A DNA stretch of 15,919 bases from Candidatus Latescibacterota bacterium. Its GTDB lineage: Bacteria > JAAXHH01 > JACQVL01. A program made the translations under genes and the position numbers. The notes under the pieces are model-generated. The model was given only the letters and a program-made list of their open reading frames with translations, was not told where the DNA came from and did no database searches. Below are positions 8,026 through 15,919 of this stretch, one piece after another (positions within the stretch are counted from its first letter, which is position 1; the number at the start of each line of letters is the position of its first letter). Location: assembly GCA_016209865.1 (NCBI GenBank), contig JACQVL010000107.1:1-15919 (forward strand), read 5' to 3'.

Positions 8026-8082
8026 AAAGGGAACGGATTCCTTCTCTCATGTTGCGTCCCTGGTACCTGTTGTTCGGTTGTC

Positions 8083-8102
8083 ATTCCCGCGAAAGCGGGA
8101 AT
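8083..8102. repeat. Short palindromic dispersed repeat, copy 3 (loop GAAA)
   Basis: The core is ATTCCCGC-GAAA-GCGGGAAT, flanked by GTC on the left and CCA on the right. It lies between the interrupted acyl-CoA synthetase and the amidase. Its right end is only 17 nt before the amidase GTG, so it could form a structure near the amidase translation-initiation region. Confidence 0.85.
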
Positions 8103-8119
8103 CCATCTCTCCCGTCGAC

Positions 8120-9373
8120 GTGAAAAGACGCCCACTGTTCCTTTTCCTTCTTGTTTTTCTTTCCTCTTTTCTATTTCCCCTTTTCCCCTTTTCCCCTTTT
8201 CCCCCGTGTCTTGCCGCCACGCCGAACATCATCGATTACCAGCGTCACCTCCCGCCGACGTTCAAGAAGCAAGCCCGGCTCGCCACCCGGCTTATCATCA
8301 TTCATGATACCGAATCCGGCCTGCAGAGTGCGCTCAACACCCTGTCGAAGGGCGGGTACAGCAACTATCTCATCGATCGGAACGGGGACATCTACCGCAC
8401 CCTCGATAAACGGTACCGCGCCGACCACGCGGGCCTCAGCATGTGGGACCGAGTCGAGGACATCAGTAGTCAATCGATCGGAATCGAACTCGTCGGCTAT
8501 TACAACGACCCGTATACGAACGCGCAGTACGCCTCCCTCTCCTGGCTCCTGAAGGTGCTCCAGAAACAGTACGCCATCCCCGACTGGCGAGTCTTAGAGC
8601 ACTACCGGGTGGCATACGGGCGGCCGAACGCGTACGTCAGGAAGCTCCATCGCGGGCGACGCAAGGACCCGGGCATTTTCAACTTCGACCGGTCGCGGGC
8701 GGGGCTGACGTCGACAGACCCGCGCAACGACGCGTTGTACGACCCGGACGTGGCGGCCGGCCGGCTCATCCCCGACCCGGACATCAACGTCGCCAGCCTC
8801 AAGCGCCGCAACCCACAGAAATTCCAGCAGGAGGTCGCGGCCCTCTCATCCAACACGATCACGGCGACGAACACCGCCTGGCGGATCGCCCGCGAGGAGT
8901 ACGACAGCCCGACGACCCTCTACAAATTCCCTGATGGACGGACGCGAAGGGGGAATCAGATCAAGGACTGGGCGAACATCCCGGCCGGGACGCAGGTGAT
9001 CGTTCGCGCGCAGGAGGATGCGACAGCGTTACAGCGCGTCGTCTTAGAGATCACGGATGGGGCGACCGCGCTTGATCGCGCCGGGCGGGCTTATCGGCGG
9101 CCCGATACATTCTACATCTTTCCCAAAGGGACGGTCAGGAACGGCACGCAGGTCAAGGATTGGGGCCAAATTCCCCCCGGAACGAAGGTACTCGTCGGCT
9201 ACCAGCCCCCCGTGCCGCTGACGAAGTCTGCTCTCCGCAAGCAAACGACACGGGCGGCCACGCAGGACCGCCGGACCGTGTTTCTCGTCCCGACGAACCG
9301 GGTCGTGTCGGCCGATCAGGTGAAAAATATCGCGAAGCTCCCGGCCGGGACGCTGATGTTCGTGAAGAAATGA
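8120..9373 (+). CDS. Secreted N-acetylmuramoyl-L-alanine amidase (Amidase_2/PGRP type) with three C-terminal repeats
   Basis: The 417-aa exported enzyme should cleave the amide between N-acetylmuramic acid and L-Ala in peptidoglycan. The start is GTG 8120, because it opens a clear signal peptide (KRR, then a Phe/Leu-rich core, cleavage near CLA-A at 32-33). No good ribosome site is visible. The Amidase_2 domain spans about 40-195: zinc ligands His62 (IIIHDT), His161 (LEHYRV) and Asp183 (RKDPG), and Glu123 in SIGIEL. The C-terminal half has three similar about 32-residue units at about 266-297, 330-361 and 386-417. Their pattern is T-hydrophobic-x-x-x-P, then Q-[IV]-K-[DN], then [IL]-P-[AP]-G-T. 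They are possibly wall- or partner-binding; I do not recognise a named domain. The signal-peptide codons are a pyrimidine tract with TTTTCCCC repeats. The gene converges on the DUF11 gene only 4 bp away. Confidence 0.85.
   Translation: MKRRPLFLFLLVFLSSFLFPLFPFSPFPPCLAATPNIIDYQRHLPPTFKKQARLATRLIIIHDTESGLQSALNTLSKGGYSNYLIDRNGDIYRTLDKRYRADHAGLSMWDRVEDISSQSIGIELVGYYNDPYTNAQYASLSWLLKVLQKQYAIPDWRVLEHYRVAYGRPNAYVRKLHRGRRKDPGIFNFDRSRAGLTSTDPRNDALYDPDVAAGRLIPDPDINVASLKRRNPQKFQQEVAALSSNTITATNTAWRIAREEYDSPTTLYKFPDGRTRRGNQIKDWANIPAGTQVIVRAQEDATALQRVVLEITDGATALDRAGRAYRRPDTFYIFPKGTVRNGTQVKDWGQIPPGTKVLVGYQPPVPLTKSALRKQTTRAATQDRRTVFLVPTNRVVSADQVKNIAKLPAGTLMFVKK
8174..8205 (+). repeat. Octamer tandem repeat (TTTTCCCC, about four units) in the amidase signal-peptide codons
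   Basis: Units occupy 8174-8180 (one T short), 8181-8188, 8189-8196 and 8197-8204, inside a long polypyrimidine stretch from about 8135. The octamer length is not a multiple of three, so gain or loss of one unit would shift the frame of the amidase. Confidence 0.85.
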
Positions 9374-9377
9374 CCGC

Positions 9378-9917
9378 TCACCGTCCGGTCCGTACCCGCA
9401 CGTTCAGCGTCGCGCTCACGCTCGCTTTGGGCGGGATGGGCTGCGTGACCACCCATTTGACGTGCGTGTACATCCCGGCCGGCGCCGGCCGCTTCTCCGT
9501 CTTCCCGTCCGGCAGCCGGACTTCATACGTCACCGGGGGAAGCTGGTAGGAACGCCCGCCGTCGATGCTGTACGAGATCGTCATCTCCTTCCCGGTCGCG
9601 CTCTCAAGGACGTACTCGGTCCCGGCGGGGATGGGGTCGACGATCTCCACGTTATGGGCGGGTTCGGTGCCACGGTTGGTGGCGGTGAGGGTGTAGCGGA
9701 TGAGATCGCCGGGCTTCGTGATCAGGTTGCCAGATTTATCCCGCTCCACTTTGCGGCCGGGCTCCGGCCCGGCTAAGGCATCGGTGATGACGATGTCGAT
9801 CTTCGGGCCGGCCGCCGGCGCGGGCTGAGCGGCCTGCGCCCACGCGTCGCTGCGCGCCAACCCGATACCGAATCCGATGATGAGAATCAGGATAATGGAA
9901 CTCCTGAACGATCGCAT
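9378..9917 (-). CDS. Small secreted DUF11-domain protein
   Basis: The 179-aa protein begins MRSFRSS at 9917, behind AAGGAGG with 6-nt spacing, which decides this start over an upstream in-frame ATG at 9956. The signal peptide has a hydrophobic IILILIIGFGIGLA core and likely cleavage after AWA near residue 27. After an Ala/Pro-rich linker there is one DUF11-like beta-sandwich: KPGDLIRYTLTATNRGTEPAHNVEIVDPIPAGTEYV, with the family's T-N-x-G-x-x-x-A-x-x-V-x-x-x-D-x-[IL]-P signature, ending ASVSATLNVRVRTGR. DUF11 domains are surface-stalk or adhesin building blocks. No membrane anchor or sortase signal is seen, so it should be periplasmic or exported. It lies downstream of the barrel and DUF11-OmpA genes on the same strand and is likely a partner, but no enzymatic role is evident. 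Confidence 0.85.
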   Translation of the reverse strand: MRSFRSSIILILIIGFGIGLARSDAWAQAAQPAPAAGPKIDIVITDALAGPEPGRKVERDKSGNLITKPGDLIRYTLTATNRGTEPAHNVEIVDPIPAGTEYVLESATGKEMTISYSIDGGRSYQLPPVTYEVRLPDGKTEKRPAPAGMYTHVKWVVTQPIPPKASVSATLNVRVRTGR

Positions 9918-9965
9918 ACTCTCCCTCCTTGCCAGACGTGATGAAGAAAATCTCATGACCTCTCA

Positions 9966-9994
9966 AACATACACTCACCAGTAGTAAAAATCAA
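9966..9994 (-). promoter_or_regulatory. Candidate sigma-70 promoter for the small DUF11 gene
   Basis: Reading the minus strand, TTGATT (9994-9989) and TATGTT (9971-9966) are separated by exactly 17 nt. Each matches consensus at 4 of 6 positions. A start near 9959 would leave an untranslated leader of about 42 nt before ATG 9917. The region is the most AT-rich in this half of the window, as expected for a promoter. Confidence 0.4.
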
Positions 9995-10021
9995 GACGGC
10001 ATTACTCAATCATTTGGTGTC

Positions 10022-10041
10022 ATTCCCGCGCAAGCGGGAAT
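10022..10041. repeat. Short palindromic dispersed repeat, copy 4 (loop GCAA)
   Basis: The core is ATTCCCGC-GCAA-GCGGGAAT, flanked by GTC and CCA as in copy 3. It lies 8 bp past the barrel-gene stop and upstream of the small DUF11 promoter. It may end or process the barrel transcript, separating it from the next gene. Confidence 0.85.
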
Positions 10042-10048
10042 CCAGTCC

Positions 10049-13000
10049 TCACCGCCAGAAGCTCTGGAGACCGTTGAGCCAGCCCGCCACCGTCGATTCC
10101 GTGAATTTGACCTGCACCTTCATGTAAGGCCCGTGCGCCCAGTACGACGTGCCCGCGAAATCCTGGTCGTGGTACCCCGCAAAGTTGTAGCCGACCGCCA
10201 TCCGGGCGTTGCGCTGGAGGATGACCCCGACCTCTGACGCGGCCCCGTGCCGGTAATCGCGGGCGGTATGCTGGAACAGGAGGCGGTATTCCCCCAAGAC
10301 ATCCAGCCGGCCCCGCCATTCATACCGGACGTTCGTCATCCACAGGTCGGTGAGCGTCCGGGACATCACGCCGTCGCTCGACAGCGAGGACACCTTGAAC
10401 CCATACCGTACAAACCACTCAACCTGCGACTTCGGTTCCAGGATCGTCTCCACCGACCCGATATGCGTCGAGCGTGTGGTTGCGGGGGTGATCAGGCTAT
10501 TGTCTTCATATTTATACTCGTATTTCCCCAGCACACTCAGGTAATCGTGCGCGGTGGCCCGGTAGGCGAGGCCCGACAGGAAATGATGCGCCTGCTGGGT
10601 GGTCGCGCTCCCGGTCCCGAACCCGACCCGCTGTTCATCTAAGTAGGTGTGCTTGGCCAGGAACGTGAAGTCTTTCGCTAACGTCAAGTCGAACGCCCCC
10701 GAGGCCACGATCTTGTCGAGGGCGACGCCGTTCCGCTGCTCATACCGGACGCTCCCCTTGACGGGCAGTTTGGGCAGGTACTCGCCGGCCAGGCTGAACG
10801 CGTAGAAATCCCCCTGCCGGTCGCCGCGAAGCGTCCGCACCCGTTCCATCGCGCTGTGGAGGGTGAGGTCGGGGCGCAGTTTGTACCGGTGCCGGAGTCC
10901 GACGATCGCCTGGTTCCGCTGCCCGTTGATCCCGCCGTCGAGTTCGTAGTTGGCATACGCCTTCAGGTCGTCGGACAGCCGGGATTGAATCCCCACGGCG
11001 GTGAAACTGGAGTCGAAGAAGCTCCGGGCGCCGCCGTCCCGGAACGCGTGTTCGCCGACGATGTCGACGCGATCACTCAAGCCGAGGCGCATCCGCAGAC
11101 GGTTGAGGGTCGGCCGGTAGGCCACATCCTTGTCCCCGTAGCTCTGGTCGCGCCGGGCGCCCACCGTCAGCCAGGGGGTCGCCGCCCAGTCAGAGCCAGC
11201 GGCGAAGATGGTGCTCCTGGCGTCACGGCCCTGGCGGTCGGACCGCGTGTCTTCGACGGACAGTTGATTGGTCAGCGTCTTCACCCGATACGTCGTCCCG
11301 ACGATGGCGCTCACCCGCTTCTCCCGGTTGACGTCGTCGTCCGTCCGGAACAGCTCGGTATTGAGGGACAGACCCTTGCCGGGCGACCAAGTCGTCCGTC
11401 CCCGGACCTTGCGGACGCCGGGCTGGGCGGTCGGACTGCTGGGGTTGTCGAACTGGCGGTCGGCGTCCCGGTAGTACAAGTCGTACCCCAGCTTCGCGCC
11501 CAATCGTCCCTGTGTTCCGACTTTCCAGGCCCATCCGTCGAGCCCCTGAGACGAACGGGCCAGTTCCGACGTCAGCGTCATCCCCTTGACCGGCTGCCAG
11601 CGCGTGTCCACCCCGGTCAGCCAGTAACTCTGCGTCATGCGTTCCTCCCCGACCACCGTCGTCCCGACCTCCCAGGTCTCGACCGGATGGAGAGCGAGAC
11701 GCCCGCCGCCCACCCATTTTTTCTGGATCGCCCGGGCGGTCTCGTACGTCGCCAGGATGATGATCGGGTGCTCTTCCGGGGTATGACTGGGAACCGGCCG
11801 CTTGAAGAGCAGCGTTCCCGCGTCGTAGTCGATCTCGTAATCCGTGAACCGGTACTGCGGCTCTTCCTTCAACACCAGCTCCGAATGGAGCCGGTCGCGC
11901 GTCTGGATGACCACCCGCTCGCTCCCCTCCACGATCGGGACGCCCCGCCGCGCGGCGGACAGGTAGTACAGCCCGGAGATGCCCTCGCCGGACACCTGAT
12001 CGACCTGGATCGCCTGGTCCGTCGACGCGCCGAAGAGGATGATCGTGGATTTCTTCTGCTGGACGACGGAGGACACCCCGGTAAACGTCCGGTTGTACGC
12101 GATCAGCTCCGAGCGGGTCAGGTCGGTGGCGAAGTTGCCGAACTGGAGCGACGACCGGTCGCGCGTCAGTCGAACGAACAGCCGGCTGGCGGACGGGGCT
12201 TCGTAGAAGATCGAGCTCGCGTCCCCATAGATCGGGAAGAACCTCTCCGGCGTCAGGTAGCGGAACACCCGGTTGTTGAACCGCCGGTCCGAGTCGTAGG
12301 ACGCCGTCAGGAGGAGACCCTTGCTCAACGTCCCCCGTGCGAAGAATGCGGCCTTCCCGTCCGCATAGCTCCCGCCGTCGAATGATTTGCCGGGCTCCAC
12401 CCCGGCTGGCGGTGCCTGGTGCCGGCGCCAGCCGACCTGCCCGACGGCGGTGCCCGTGACCATCCACTGTTCATGGGGCAGGGTATAATCCAGCTCGGCC
12501 TCGGCGGTCACCCCGTCGGCGGTCACGCTGATCCGGTCTGTCCCGACGGTCGTCGACGAGAGGACGTGGACGACCACCGCCCCGGCCTGGACCTGCACCT
12601 GGACGCCCGGCTGGTCGGGATAGATGTCGGTCGTCAGGATCGTCCCTCGGTCGATCTGCACGGTGACCATCTGTCCGTCGGCTAACGGCATGCCCCACTG
12701 ATCGACCACCCGGGCTTTGACTTCTGCCTGGGACAGGCTGTCGGCGGGGATGGAGGACGGGACCACCTCCAGCAGCACTTTCGCGGCGGGGCCGACGACG
12801 TGGATGCGCACGCTGTCGGCGAACGTGAACCCGCCGGGGAGTTGCTGCGCCACACGCAGGACGACCGGCCCGGCGGGCGCGCGGACGTTGAGGAAGTCGG
12901 CCTTCATATCAGGCCGCACGTCGAGCGTCTGGGCGTCCGTGCCGTTGACGGTCAGAGTGATGGGGAACCCGGAACGCCCCCGGACGATGACCGCGATCCG

Positions 13001-13135
13001 GTCCCGGTGGCTGACCGACTTGTCAGCCGGGGACTCGATCTTGACGAGTTGGGCCAGAGCCGGAGCGGCGCTCACAAGGAGCACCAGCGGCGCCAGCCAG
13101 CGGCCAATCATCCTGAGGGGACGGGCGAGGATCAT
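10049..13135 (-). CDS. Large outer-membrane beta-barrel protein with N-terminal Ig-like domains
   Basis: The 1028-aa protein has a signal peptide (MILARPLRMIGRWLAPLVLLVSAAPALA, cleavage after residue 28). Residues about 30-115 look like an Ig-like domain. About 116-220 resemble a Big_1/invasin-type domain: VPSSIPADSLSQAEVKARVVDQWGMPLADG, then ISVTADGVTAEAEL. From about 225 to the end the sequence is a long series of alternating strands rich in Tyr, Arg and Trp with short turns, typical of a large outer-membrane barrel. The last residues are FWR rather than a terminal aromatic. I recognise no named family for the whole protein. The start at 13135 overlaps the stop of the upstream DUF11-OmpA gene (ATGA, 13132-13135), with a GGGGGGTGA ribosome site inside that gene's end, so the two are translationally coupled. 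A role as translocation pore or anchor for the DUF11 protein is inferred from context. Confidence 0.75.
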   Translation of the reverse strand: MILARPLRMIGRWLAPLVLLVSAAPALAQLVKIESPADKSVSHRDRIAVIVRGRSGFPITLTVNGTDAQTLDVRPDMKADFLNVRAPAGPVVLRVAQQLPGGFTFADSVRIHVVGPAAKVLLEVVPSSIPADSLSQAEVKARVVDQWGMPLADGQMVTVQIDRGTILTTDIYPDQPGVQVQVQAGAVVVHVLSSTTVGTDRISVTADGVTAEAELDYTLPHEQWMVTGTAVGQVGWRRHQAPPAGVEPGKSFDGGSYADGKAAFFARGTLSKGLLLTASYDSDRRFNNRVFRYLTPERFFPIYGDASSIFYEAPSASRLFVRLTRDRSSLQFGNFATDLTRSELIAYNRTFTGVSSVVQQKKSTIILFGASTDQAIQVDQVSGEGISGLYYLSAARRGVPIVEGSERVVIQTRDRLHSELVLKEEPQYRFTDYEIDYDAGTLLFKRPVPSHTPEEHPIIILATYETARAIQKKWVGGGRLALHPVETWEVGTTVVGEERMTQSYWLTGVDTRWQPVKGMTLTSELARSSQGLDGWAWKVGTQGRLGAKLGYDLYYRDADRQFDNPSSPTAQPGVRKVRGRTTWSPGKGLSLNTELFRTDDDVNREKRVSAIVGTTYRVKTLTNQLSVEDTRSDRQGRDARSTIFAAGSDWAATPWLTVGARRDQSYGDKDVAYRPTLNRLRMRLGLSDRVDIVGEHAFRDGGARSFFDSSFTAVGIQSRLSDDLKAYANYELDGGINGQRNQAIVGLRHRYKLRPDLTLHSAMERVRTLRGDRQGDFYAFSLAGEYLPKLPVKGSVRYEQRNGVALDKIVASGAFDLTLAKDFTFLAKHTYLDEQRVGFGTGSATTQQAHHFLSGLAYRATAHDYLSVLGKYEYKYEDNSLITPATTRSTHIGSVETILEPKSQVEWFVRYGFKVSSLSSDGVMSRTLTDLWMTNVRYEWRGRLDVLGEYRLLFQHTARDYRHGAASEVGVILQRNARMAVGYNFAGYHDQDFAGTSYWAHGPYMKVQVKFTESTVAGWLNGLQSFWR

Positions 13136-15919
13136 CGCTCACCCCCCATCATCCCCGATTGCTTCTGTTGCGTCGGCACGACGACGGATGGTTTTCCTGT
13201 CACCGCAGGGTTCGTGATCCACTGGCCATCGGGCAGGCTGTAACTCACGACCGACCGGATCGGCAGAGCGGTGTTCCCGCTGGTCGTGCCGGTCACGTCG
13301 ACCTGGTACGACACGGTGAAGGTGTCACCGGGCTTGACATCCTGGAGCGACCAGACCAGTACCCCGTTCCCCACGAACGGCGGCACGGACGCGCTCCCGG
13401 CCCGGTACACCATCCCGACGCCCAAGGAATCCGCCACCTGCACCCATGCTACCGGCCCGGGGCCTTTGCAGGTCACGGTCGTCGTCCGGGTTAAGCCCAC
13501 TTCAAACGGAATCCGCTCGACATCCGTCTCGATGATCTCGATCTCCACCCGGCGGTTCCGCCGCCGCCCGTCCGGAGTGCTGTTCGTCGCCACCGGTCGG
13601 CGCGGGCCATGTCCTTGCGTGATGATCCGCTTCGGGTCGACCCCAGCCGCCACCAGCCAGGTCTTGACCGCTTCCGCCCGCGCTAACGACAGTTCGTCGT
13701 TACTCGGGAACTGCGGGGTGTGGATAGGGTTCGAGTCGGTATGCCCGCTGACGACGATCGGCTTGTCCGGGATCGTCCCCAGCTTCGCCCGGAGCGCCCG
13801 GAGGGTGACGATCGCGTTCTCCCTCAGGTCGGCAAGCCCGGACTCGAACGAGTCCGCCCCCAGACTGCTCAGCCGCTCGTGCTTGACTTCCACGAACAGC
13901 GTCTCCGGAGAGGTCGAGGCGGAGACCGCCCAGGCGGGACGGGGGAGGATGGTCACGGTGACGCTGTCGCGGGAGCTCGGGATTAGGGGTTCGGGGTTCG
14001 GGGTTCGGGGTTCAATCCGCCCCCGAATCCCCAATCCCGAATCCCGAACCCCGGACGTATCCGGGGCGGGCGGCGCGGGCTTGCGGCGGAACGGGAAATT
14101 CGCTTTGGCCAGCCCGGTCTGGGAGACATCCGCAAACCGGATCCACGGGTCCTGCGCGGAGCGGGTGCCTAAGACCATCGGCTCAAGGTCGGACGGAATA
14201 TTCCGGTCGAGCAGCCGCAGCACATGGCTGCCCGCCCGGACTTCCGGGATGGAGAACCGGCCCTGCCGGTCGGCGATGATGCGGGTGCCGTCCTCCATGA
14301 CCATCACGACGCCCGGCACCGGAGGCTCACCCTTCTCTTGAACCCCGTTCTCGTTCAGGTCGACCCAGGCTTTGCCCACGATCACTTCGCCGCGGGAGAA
14401 CAGGTCGGGGCGGACTCGCACCTTCGTCCGTGCCGGACCCGCCGGGGCGGGGTAGCCGCGCGGGGTCGTGGCTGAAGCCATCGCCACGTTCATCCCGTCC
14501 CCGGACTCGGCGTCCGCGCCTAAGACCAGCCGGTAGCTCAGCCGCCGGGTCTTGCCCGCATCCAGCCGGGCAACCCGCCAGACGACGTCCCGGCCACGGA
14601 GGCTGTCCGGGGCCAGCAACTGGCCGTCGAGCCGGGCCGTCCCCTTCACGTAATCGAACCCGTACGGGAGCCGGTCCCGGACGACGACGTTCGTCAGGTC
14701 GGTGCTCGTGCTGAGGTTCTGCAAGACCACCCGGTAGACGACGAACTCCCCGGCTTCCGCCACGCTCTGATCCGCCCCCTTCTGTACCGTGAAGAACGGG
14801 ACGGTGACCACCACGTCAGCCGGGTTGGAGACGTACGTCAGGCCATTCCAGGACGCCACGGCGACGTTGCGCGTCGGATGCTCGCCCGGCTCCAGGCCCG
14901 GTCGCGGCGTCAGGCTGGCCCGCAGGGTCTGCGTCTGCTGGGGTGTGATGATGGGCAGCGTCCACACCAGGGCATGGGCCAGACTATCGTACACGGCGGG
15001 CGGCTGGCTGCTCCCCGCGACGTACGCTAAGGCGTTCGGCAGGGTATCGCTGACCGTCACGGCCGTGAGGGTATCGACGGGCGCGGTGACCGTCACGGTG
15101 TACTCCACCATCTCTCCCGCTTCGATCACTGGTTGATTCGTGCTCTTGGTCAGAATGAGCATCTGGGTCGGCTTGATGAAGACCTTCACGTTCGCGCGGA
15201 GCCGGCGGTCGTAGTTGATCAGCCAGGCGATGTTCTCGACCCAGGGGTGTGTCGTGTGGACGCGGACCGTCAGGCTGATCGTATCCACCGTGCCGGGCGC
15301 GAGGGCGGTGTACGTCCAGGTGAGGACGTTCCCGCTCACGACGGGCTTCCCTCTGGCAGACACCAGGGTGATGCCCGGTGGGAGCGAATCCACCAGGGCG
15401 ATCGGTCCCGGAACGGTGATCGAGTCGTCATTCCGGATGATCAGGTGGAAGACGACGGTGTCCCCCGTGTGTACCGTATCGGGAACGGCACGTTTGGTCA
15501 GGCTAAGCTGAGGGGTGCGGACGGGGGTCGTCGTAGCGGTCGCCGCCCAGGTCCGGCTGTCCGGTCCATGAATGAGCGCCTTATCTAAGATGACCGTGCC
15601 CACCTTGATCGAATCCACGATTTGAGCGATAAAGTGCGTGCTGTCCGTCTGACCGACCGCCACGTCCGGGAGCGGCCAGACGATCATCTGGCCGTCGATC
15701 CGGCCGCCGCTCAGGTACGCCGCGCCGACCGGTTTCGTCGTAGGCCCGGCCTGACCGTTCGTCACCGACACCGGGAAGAGCACGGGTGGAAGGGAATCGA
15801 TCAAAGTGAACCCGACGGCCGTTTGCGTCCCGATGTTCGTGAACGGGATCGTGTCCGGAACCTGCTGGCCCGGCCCGACGCTGTCCGCCTCCGCCCGAAT
15901 CCGCAATTCCCACGTGGGG
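13132..15919 (-). CDS. DUF11-repeat / SdrD_B / OmpA-domain surface protein (5' end outside window)
   Basis: The frame is open to the right edge; codons before the TTG at 15906 read P-T-W-E, so the N-terminus is missing. At least 928 residues are visible. Four DUF11-type beta-sandwich repeats come first (about 15919-15515, 15510-15170, 15165-14790 and 14785-14405), each with a D-x-L-P turn. An SdrD_B-like domain follows (about 14390-14190; GKAWVDLNENGVQEKGEPPVPGV). A proline-rich linker encoded by an inverted heptamer array lies at 13979-14052. Then comes an OmpA-like peptidoglycan-binding domain (about 13910-13515; VSGHTDSNP, ELSLARAEAV, DGRRRNRRVEIEI). A final DUF11-like domain ends the protein. 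The architecture suggests a periplasmic or surface stalk held to peptidoglycan. It is translationally coupled to the barrel gene by a 4-nt overlap. The exact function is unknown. Confidence 0.87.
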   Translation of the reverse strand, partial: PTWELRIRAEADSVGPGQQVPDTIPFTNIGTQTAVGFTLIDSLPPVLFPVSVTNGQAGPTTKPVGAAYLSGGRIDGQMIVWPLPDVAVGQTDSTHFIAQIVDSIKVGTVILDKALIHGPDSRTWAATATTTPVRTPQLSLTKRAVPDTVHTGDTVVFHLIIRNDDSITVPGPIALVDSLPPGITLVSARGKPVVSGNVLTWTYTALAPGTVDTISLTVRVHTTHPWVENIAWLINYDRRLRANVKVFIKPTQMLILTKSTNQPVIEAGEMVEYTVTVTAPVDTLTAVTVSDTLPNALAYVAGSSQPPAVYDSLAHALVWTLPIITPQQTQTLRASLTPRPGLEPGEHPTRNVAVASWNGLTYVSNPADVVVTVPFFTVQKGADQSVAEAGEFVVYRVVLQNLSTSTDLTNVVVRDRLPYGFDYVKGTARLDGQLLAPDSLRGRDVVWRVARLDAGKTRRLSYRLVLGADAESGDGMNVAMASATTPRGYPAPAGPARTKVRVRPDLFSRGEVIVGKAWVDLNENGVQEKGEPPVPGVVMVMEDGTRIIADRQGRFSIPEVRAGSHVLRLLDRNIPSDLEPMVLGTRSAQDPWIRFADVSQTGLAKANFPFRRKPAPPAPDTSGVRDSGLGIRGRIEPRTPNPEPLIPSSRDSVTVTILPRPAWAVSASTSPETLFVEVKHERLSSLGADSFESGLADLRENAIVTLRALRAKLGTIPDKPIVVSGHTDSNPIHTPQFPSNDELSLARAEAVKTWLVAAGVDPKRIITQGHGPRRPVATNSTPDGRRRNRRVEIEIIETDVERIPFEVGLTRTTTVTCKGPGPVAWVQVADSLGVGMVYRAGSASVPPFVGNGVLVWSLQDVKPGDTFTVSYQVDVTGTTSGNTALPIRSVVSYSLPDGQWITNPAVTGKPSVVVPTQQKQSGMMGGER
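13979..14052. repeat. Inverted arrays of GGGRTTC heptamers inside a coding region, with a G-quadruplex motif
   Basis: On the + strand there are five tandem heptamers at 13979-14013: GGGATTA, then four perfect GGGGTTC. After an 11-bp spacer, four heptamers of the same family lie in the opposite direction at 14025-14052 (read on the minus strand as GGGGTTC, GGGATTC, GGGATTG, GGGATTC). The two arrays can pair as a long hairpin. Positions 13986-14010 hold four G4 runs separated by TTC. The array is translated in frame as a Gly/Arg/Pro-rich linker between SdrD_B-like and OmpA domains. Confidence 0.9.

Follow-up and report, generated by a model that had tools for sequence, protein, structure and literature searches.

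A widespread and apparently undescribed DUF11–barrel system as a candidate surface structure on a Candidatus Latescibacterota contig

Do a DUF11–OmpA stalk protein, a large barrel protein and a small DUF11 protein, encoded side by side, belong to one apparatus on the cell surface? The question is raised by the window analysed here, a stretch of 15,919 nt that is the entire contig C47 (G000:C47) in the 356-contig draft genome of a Candidatus Latescibacterota bacterium (3.75 Mb, 83% complete). Its minus strand carries the stalk, barrel and small DUF11 genes, matching the description in a first-pass annotation; the three genes, the ATGA coupling of stalk and barrel and the small secreted DUF11 protein were confirmed from the sequence and with Pfam. 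We find, by comparison of sequences across genomes, that the three parts form a conserved unit and that the DUF11–barrel system is widespread and apparently undescribed. We give even chances to the reading that it is a surface structure on a dedicated outer-membrane barrel, likely adhesive, in which DUF11 proteins would be joined by donor-strand complementation.

Stalk, barrel and small protein as a unit

The stalk matches the Pfam family DUF11 (PF01345/TIGR01451) in five stretches (E 4.8e-42, 143 bits, cut-off 24.6) and the family OmpA (PF00691) at 68.6 bits (cut-off 27.2), with a match to SdrD_B that stays under its cut-off. The PDB relatives of its OmpA domain are TssL, MotB and YiaD. The role of wall-binder that had been assigned to this domain holds up, as the domain is intact and, read from the sequence, Asp728 and Arg747 stand at the peptidoglycan-binding positions that contact diaminopimelate (DAP); these positions we take to be those of D271 and R286 in A. 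baumannii OmpA. All six DUF11 matches of the draft genome fall on this contig.

In the nearest barrel relative with flanks (genome G311; L057, 4183–11538), stalk and barrel are a single chain of 2451 aa. Residues 134–804 of the window stalk align with residues 617–1263 of this chain at 43% identity, and residues 29–1028 of the barrel protein with residues 1454–2449 at 58% identity over 1001 aa; both alignments are collinear, so the window shows the split version of one protein. The tree pairs the two barrels as sisters with 100/100 support, and split and fused forms are scattered over it, requiring at least three changes. By these alignments, stalk and barrel are two halves of one family with the order DUF11n – SdrD_B – (±OmpA) – (±Ig) – barrel. 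The earlier picture of a stalk plus a coupled barrel is therefore kept in part: the ATGA overlap is confirmed, but the two are one polypeptide in many relatives, which makes the window arrangement a split form. The 4-nt overlap of stalk and barrel genes recurs in the split forms of Thermus, cyanobacterial and Sinorhizobium loci (L049, L055, L077 and L111). As the split barrel has a signal peptide of its own, stalk and barrel would have to find each other after export.

The small protein matches DUF11 at E 2.8e-9 (37.7 bits, cut-off 24.6). Its gene probably starts at the ATG at 9917, behind AAGGAGG, rather than at 9956, which gives a protein of 179 aa with a signal peptide. It is 54% identical to a 193-aa protein that adjoins the fused gene of G311, and the motif ...SxDGGxxY...EKRxAPxxYTHxxW... 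is common to the small proteins of the window, G311, cyanobacteria, G136 and G338; judged by this shared motif, the small proteins are a family of their own. A profile of the small proteins gave eight near-full-length matches in 384 genomes, and all eight genomes hold the barrel, which overall occurs in about 20 of the 384 genomes sampled across bacteria. The profile was built without four of the eight matched genomes (G291, G274, G292 and G334). Small gene and barrel share one locus in 6/8 genomes; of the other two genomes, G292 has each of them on a short contig and G274 has them at separate places.

Nearly all barrel loci with readable flanks have DUF11/SdrD_B proteins fused to the barrel or adjacent to it. 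In a genome of another phylum than the window's, the stalk–barrel pair and the small gene each have collinear relatives. Co-occurrence of the three genes across genomes, the check that the first-pass annotation had itself named, was found, and from these gene neighbourhoods the small DUF11 protein is a conserved neighbour of stalk and barrel. Most other barrel loci hold additional, longer DUF11 proteins; none is visible on this contig, which is cut at its edge.

Profile searches place the barrel family in at least six named phyla (an early profile, made from a second alignment, recovered only four barrel loci). Full-length barrels were found in Ignavibacteria/Bacteroidota, in Candidatus Aerophobetes, in Pseudomonadota (Acinetobacter, Pseudochrobactrum, Sinorhizobium, Roseivivax, Pacificitalea, Eleftheria and others) and in cyanobacteria (Synechococcus NIES-970 and Kovacikia), and a diverged form in Deinococcus and Thermus. 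The usual domain order is DUF11 repeats, SdrD_B, OmpA (in about half), Ig (often) and barrel. Plasmid pTT27 of Thermus thermophilus HB8 has the full set of small, DUF11, DUF11/SdrD, barrel and DUF11 genes, in which the barrel gene overlaps each of its two neighbours by 4 nt. The small gene there is TTH_RS10905 and the barrel gene TTH_RS10920, with TTH_RS10910 and TTH_RS11750 as further genes of the set; the HB8 stalk protein is WP_262409785.1.

Several observations on individual strains were made along the way. T. thermophilus HB8 (L111) retains all five genes; in HB27 (L112) the barrel is still there, but the small gene and one long DUF11 gene are gone and two further genes are largely missing, so that the two strains form a natural pair. 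The DUF11/SdrD gene of D. radiodurans is fragmented in the old reference NC_000958 and whole in NZ_CP031502 (L078, L113). Most genomes of the window organism's order have no barrel, and the nearest named relative in that order is filed under Candidatus Zixiibacteriota. Two same-order genomes have no stalk, and of the barrel they keep no more than a frameshifted copy or a fragment (L016, 3846–6362; L017, 9059–9508).

The barrel and its module in common with SprA

No Pfam, NCBIfam, PHROGs or PDB sequence family spans the barrel, and residues ~222–1028 have no PDB sequence match apart from one separate hit at chance level. The invasin-like Ig domains noted earlier proved to be a real similarity confined to one stretch (aa 122–214), where Invasin_D3 (E 2.6e-5) and Big_1 (E 0.0013) both match below their Pfam cut-offs. 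The Ig region is retained in Ignavibacterial, cyanobacterial and Acinetobacter relatives.

The barrel domain (aa 222–1028) was modelled with AlphaFold2 (AF2) from a six-sequence alignment, which gave about 38 strands of at least 7 residues at a mean predicted local distance difference test (pLDDT) of 61 and a predicted template modelling score (pTM) of 0.37. A first model that included the Ig region had been discarded at a pLDDT of 44. The best Foldseek matches of the barrel model are outer-membrane barrels of many kinds, including SprA, FimD, LptD and SlpA. VIA matches are outer-membrane barrels as well, and since many barrel families tie among them, no fold family was assigned. A C-terminal GPY/F.....KF is conserved among barrel members. 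On the long predicted strands, this terminal motif and the fold matches, the barrel is placed in the outer-membrane beta-barrel fold class, at low model confidence.

Profiles of known barrel types were run on the window barrel and 21 family members. The plug and barrel profiles of TonB-dependent receptors, the usher profiles and the autotransporter and two-partner profiles (PF03797; POTRA + ShlB) matched none of them. No known porin family matches the window barrel; 4/21 members weakly match Porin_4, and the matches of the 21 members are scattered, weak and to generic barrel families only. The first-pass annotation had named a profile match of the barrel to a known porin or TonB-receptor type as something that would refute its proposal; by profile search the barrel is neither. 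RefSeq labels several alphaproteobacterial relatives (L053, 9053–12784; hits H49–H59) as TonB-dependent receptors, for which the profiles give no support.

An alignment of the barrel family with SprA by hhalign covers 123 columns at a probability of 97.9% (E 5e-13, score 122). The control, an unrelated usher, scored 62 with a probability of 91%, so hhalign probabilities run high for barrels; the SprA match is well above this control, and by profile comparison a module of about 120 residues is common to the barrel and SprA. The barrel profile matches NCBIfam-named SprA proteins at 203 and 199 bits (cut-off 200). SprA is a 36-stranded translocon of ~7 nm (PMC7463736). The SprA model TIGR04189 matches neither the window barrel nor any of the 21 members, and SprA by this model is absent from the window's draft genome and from 9/14 barrel genomes, so that, going by the translocon, the system does not count as type IX secretion.

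PorV is the partner of SprA in type IX secretion, and a PorV/PorQ-family gene (L019, 3431–4324; 175 bits, cut-off 90) adjoins an Aerophobetes barrel gene. A second family of ~1000 aa with an SprA-like module occurs in the same order as the window organism (L085, 102–3143; L086, 1–3292); matches of similar length to it occur in many other genomes, and L086 has no Pfam name.

DUF11 chain ends and the proposed assembly

The long DUF11 proteins of barrel loci show the motif 'aGTxIxNxAxxxY...SNxVxTxV' directly after the signal peptide, which resembles the closing pair of strands in a DUF11 fold. The C-termini of the partner proteins stop at the strand preceding that pair. A donor profile whose sole input was 106 internal DUF11 tails was run over N-termini with a threshold of 8 bits. 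This threshold was reached by 19/36 long partners, stalks and fused proteins, by none of 12 small proteins and by none of 54 shuffles. Among other N-termini, 4/350 reached it, and inspection showed that these four are themselves long DUF11 proteins from barrel loci (long versus other N-termini, p = 3e-19). For DUF11 proteins from 20 loci without a full-length barrel, the count was 2/24 (Fisher p = 3e-4). At the opposite end, the C-terminus lies within 5 residues of the DUF11 core in 30/34 partners compared with 13/26 controls (p = 0.0014). The idea that a C-terminal DUF11 is a secretion signal peculiar to barrel loci was dropped, since those 13 controls have the same ending.

By these two features, base proteins have the donor only, long partners have both halves, and the small proteins and some larger proteins have the acceptor only. 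In the window, the DUF11 core of the small protein stops 3 residues ahead of the stop codon, and its N-terminus is without a donor motif. Two of the larger acceptor-only proteins of barrel loci (L061, 3074–8200; L075, 2695–4986) have AgmC-like N-terminal domains, at 111–119 bits and below the cut-off of 275. AgmC is an adventurous gliding protein; no paper was found on this AgmC-like domain.

The pattern suggests the following assembly. From its known domains, the OmpA part would hold the stalk to peptidoglycan, with the barrel in the outer membrane. The DUF11 proteins may then be joined outside the cell by donor-strand complementation: the stalk or fused protein would be the base, the long partners, where present, the links, and the small protein the cap or the first-in tip. 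The large acceptor-only proteins with other N-terminal domains might serve as tips, like FimH in type 1 pili. More tentatively, the large barrel, with the module that it shares with the SprA translocon, could be the passage by which DUF11 subunits get across the outer membrane. Adhesion or cell–cell contact would be the most likely use. Only base and cap are seen in the window. The 'fibre and cap' that had been suggested for the DUF11 units thus gains sequence support from the donor and acceptor ends, and the fibre itself we infer.

Several points weigh against this assembly. About half of the long N-termini stay under 8 bits, and C-terminal DUF11 ends are found also at loci without the barrel (13/26), in control proteins that came from loci chosen by DUF11 similarity and not at random. 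The N-terminus of the window stalk is missing, and its donor is taken from G311, where it is itself weak (4.4 bits); this N-terminus and the long partners were sought in the 83%-complete draft genome and not found. The poor barrel model makes the strand number soft, and hhalign returned 91% with an unrelated usher. We hold as doubtful the bolder version, for at least six named phyla including Deinococcota, in which a barrel of ~36 strands related to SprA would both export and anchor Ig-like DUF11 subunits, a donated strand pair would stitch these together head to tail, the small protein would be an obligatory cap or initiator and the fibre base would be fused to the translocon.

There are two main rivals: export without any fibre, and a tether that stays wholly in the periplasm. 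In the first, the barrel would be an SprA-like translocon, in the manner of two-partner or type IX secretion, for free DUF11 proteins that are released or attached elsewhere. The module in common with SprA, the ~38 predicted strands against 36 in SprA (PMC7463736), the PorV/PorQ-family neighbour in Aerophobetes and a gene order of exoprotein then barrel all fit such a role. The barrel is covalently joined to DUF11 in many phyla, however, so that some cargo could not leave; the split DUF11 fold at the chain ends would go unexplained, and the window genome has no TIGR04189 match. We consider export alone unlikely.

A periplasmic tether, in which DUF11 repeats and small protein would be a post between the wall, bound by OmpA, and the outer membrane, bound by the barrel, would account for the placement of the OmpA domain between DUF11 repeats and barrel. 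It would also fit the distribution of OmpA, which is present in fused forms that have few DUF11 repeats and absent from the form with 17. Yet the 17–20 DUF11 repeats of relatives would exceed the width of the periplasm, and the same DUF11 type is found at the C-terminus of large proteins whose N-terminal domains are of other, adhesin-like kinds; we regard the tether as quite unlikely. The chain ends could also reflect circular permutation, the N-terminal strand pair closing the C-terminal DUF11 of the same chain without any chain of subunits. Long partners do contain both halves, but the base and the small protein each lack one and, if the rule is right, must pair in trans, which makes permutation improbable. 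That the barrel is an unrelated porin or receptor for uptake, its surface domains being decoration, is very improbable despite the RefSeq names and the Porin_4 matches, given 0/21 plug or TonB-receptor family matches and the constant linkage of barrel to DUF11.

Gene layout and comparison with known systems

The features of the locus are collected in Table 1.

Table 1. Features of the stalk, barrel and small DUF11 genes in the window
Feature	Position (nt)	Strand	Evidence or remark
Stalk gene	13132–15918+	(-)	DUF11 x4 – SdrD_B – OmpA – DUF11, at least 928 aa; 5' end past contig edge
DUF11 no. 1 of stalk	15607–15894	(-)	PF01345, 26.3 bits
DUF11 no. 2 of stalk	15217–15507	(-)	PF01345, 41.4 bits
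DUF11 no. 3 of stalk	14908–15159	(-)	PF01345, 39.7 bits
DUF11 no. 4 of stalk	14464–14787	(-)	PF01345, 43.3 bits
SdrD_B-like domain, aa 517–566	14221–14370	(-)	Pfam E 1.7e-4; position kept in most relatives
OmpA-type peptidoglycan-binding domain, aa 691–789	13552–13848	(-)	Pfam E 6.4e-19
DUF11 no. 5, between OmpA and stalk C-terminus	13267–13494	(-)	PF01345, 22.1 bits, under cut-off
ATGA overlap, stalk stop/barrel start	13132–13135	(-)	Junction sequence GAGCGATGATCC
Barrel gene	10049–13135	(-)	1028 aa: signal peptide, Ig region, predicted outer-membrane barrel
Ig-like region, aa 30–218	12482–13048	(-)	Invasin_D3/Big_1 similarity at aa 122–214
Barrel domain, aa 222–1028	10052–12472	(-)	~38 predicted strands of at least 7 residues (AF2)
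SprA-like module, aa ~389–530 (..EGSERVVIQTRD..DYEIDYDAGTLLFKRPV..)	11546–11971	(-)	hhalign
Small secreted single-DUF11 gene	Open reading frame 9378–9956, probable start 9917	(-)	Pfam match, Shine-Dalgarno-like AAGGAGG

The small gene had been credited with its own promoter; neither a sigma-70-like promoter nor a terminator was found within 9300–10200. The spacer between the barrel and small genes contains one copy of a genome-wide 24-nt hairpin repeat, GATTCCCGCNNNCGCGGGAATGAC, which lies in the window at 382–405, 8080–8103 and 10019–10042 and has 224 copies in the draft genome (at most 3 mismatches), compared with none for the pattern read backwards. Within the stalk gene, in the SdrD_B–OmpA interval, an in-frame inverted repeat with 33-nt arms of GGGATTCGGG type occupies window 13978–14053; the G311 relative carries just a Pro-rich linker there, and by its arms the stretch is a palindromic element within the coding region. 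An Amidase_2 (N-acetylmuramoyl-L-alanine amidase) gene at 8168–9373 is convergent with the small DUF11 gene and ends 5 nt from it; such a neighbour was not noticed at other barrel loci.

Many surface proteins of bacteria and archaea contain DUF11, which is still a 'domain of unknown function'. A search of the openly accessible literature, with subscription papers outside its reach, found no description of a DUF11–barrel system, which is not proof of novelty. A joining rule for DUF11 proteins tied to a dedicated barrel would, if true, give a function to many hypothetical genes and point to one route for surface display in Thermus, Deinococcus and cyanobacteria. It would also link the giant type IX barrel SprA with bacteria in which type IX secretion is lacking. 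As the system is present in the model organisms T. thermophilus HB8 and D. radiodurans, these ideas are testable there.

DUF11 surface proteins have been described elsewhere: the aggregation protein of Methanothermobacter CaT2, as cited in PMC10787695, and F-Anchor-3, a Clostridial protein (PMC11952670). The system resembles these archaeal and Clostridial proteins in its DUF11 repeats, which there lie on cell or spore surfaces and are linked with aggregation or fibre anchoring; it differs in its outer-membrane barrel partner, none being described for those proteins. With proteins of the OmpA/OprF type it shares a wall-binding OmpA domain joined to an outer-membrane barrel, but it has ~38 predicted strands instead of 8, DUF11, SdrD_B and Ig domains, and partner proteins.

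Archaeal threads, bundling pili and TasA are donor-strand filaments that form without an usher (PMC9715654). The head-to-tail joining of Ig-like subunits by donor-strand complementation proposed here would resemble theirs, in diderm bacteria and with a dedicated outer-membrane barrel and the DUF11 fold, features that set it apart from archaeal threads and TasA. The likeness to SprA/Sov of the type IX secretion system (TIGR04189) lies in the ~120-residue module, the very large predicted barrel and the one relative with a PorV-family neighbour; the barrel differs in having no TIGR04189 match, and SprA is absent from the window genome and from 9/14 barrel genomes.

Among the close parallels are also the chaperone-usher pili (FimD/FimA/FimH), which also combine an outer-membrane barrel with Ig-like subunits, and in which an N-terminal strand is donated to an incomplete Ig fold and an acceptor-only subunit forms the end, as we propose here. 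Unlike in those pili, the barrel gives no usher match and no PapD-like chaperone was seen in the window; the donated element would be a strand pair and not a single strand, an OmpA domain would provide a wall anchor, and in many phyla base and barrel form one covalent chain.

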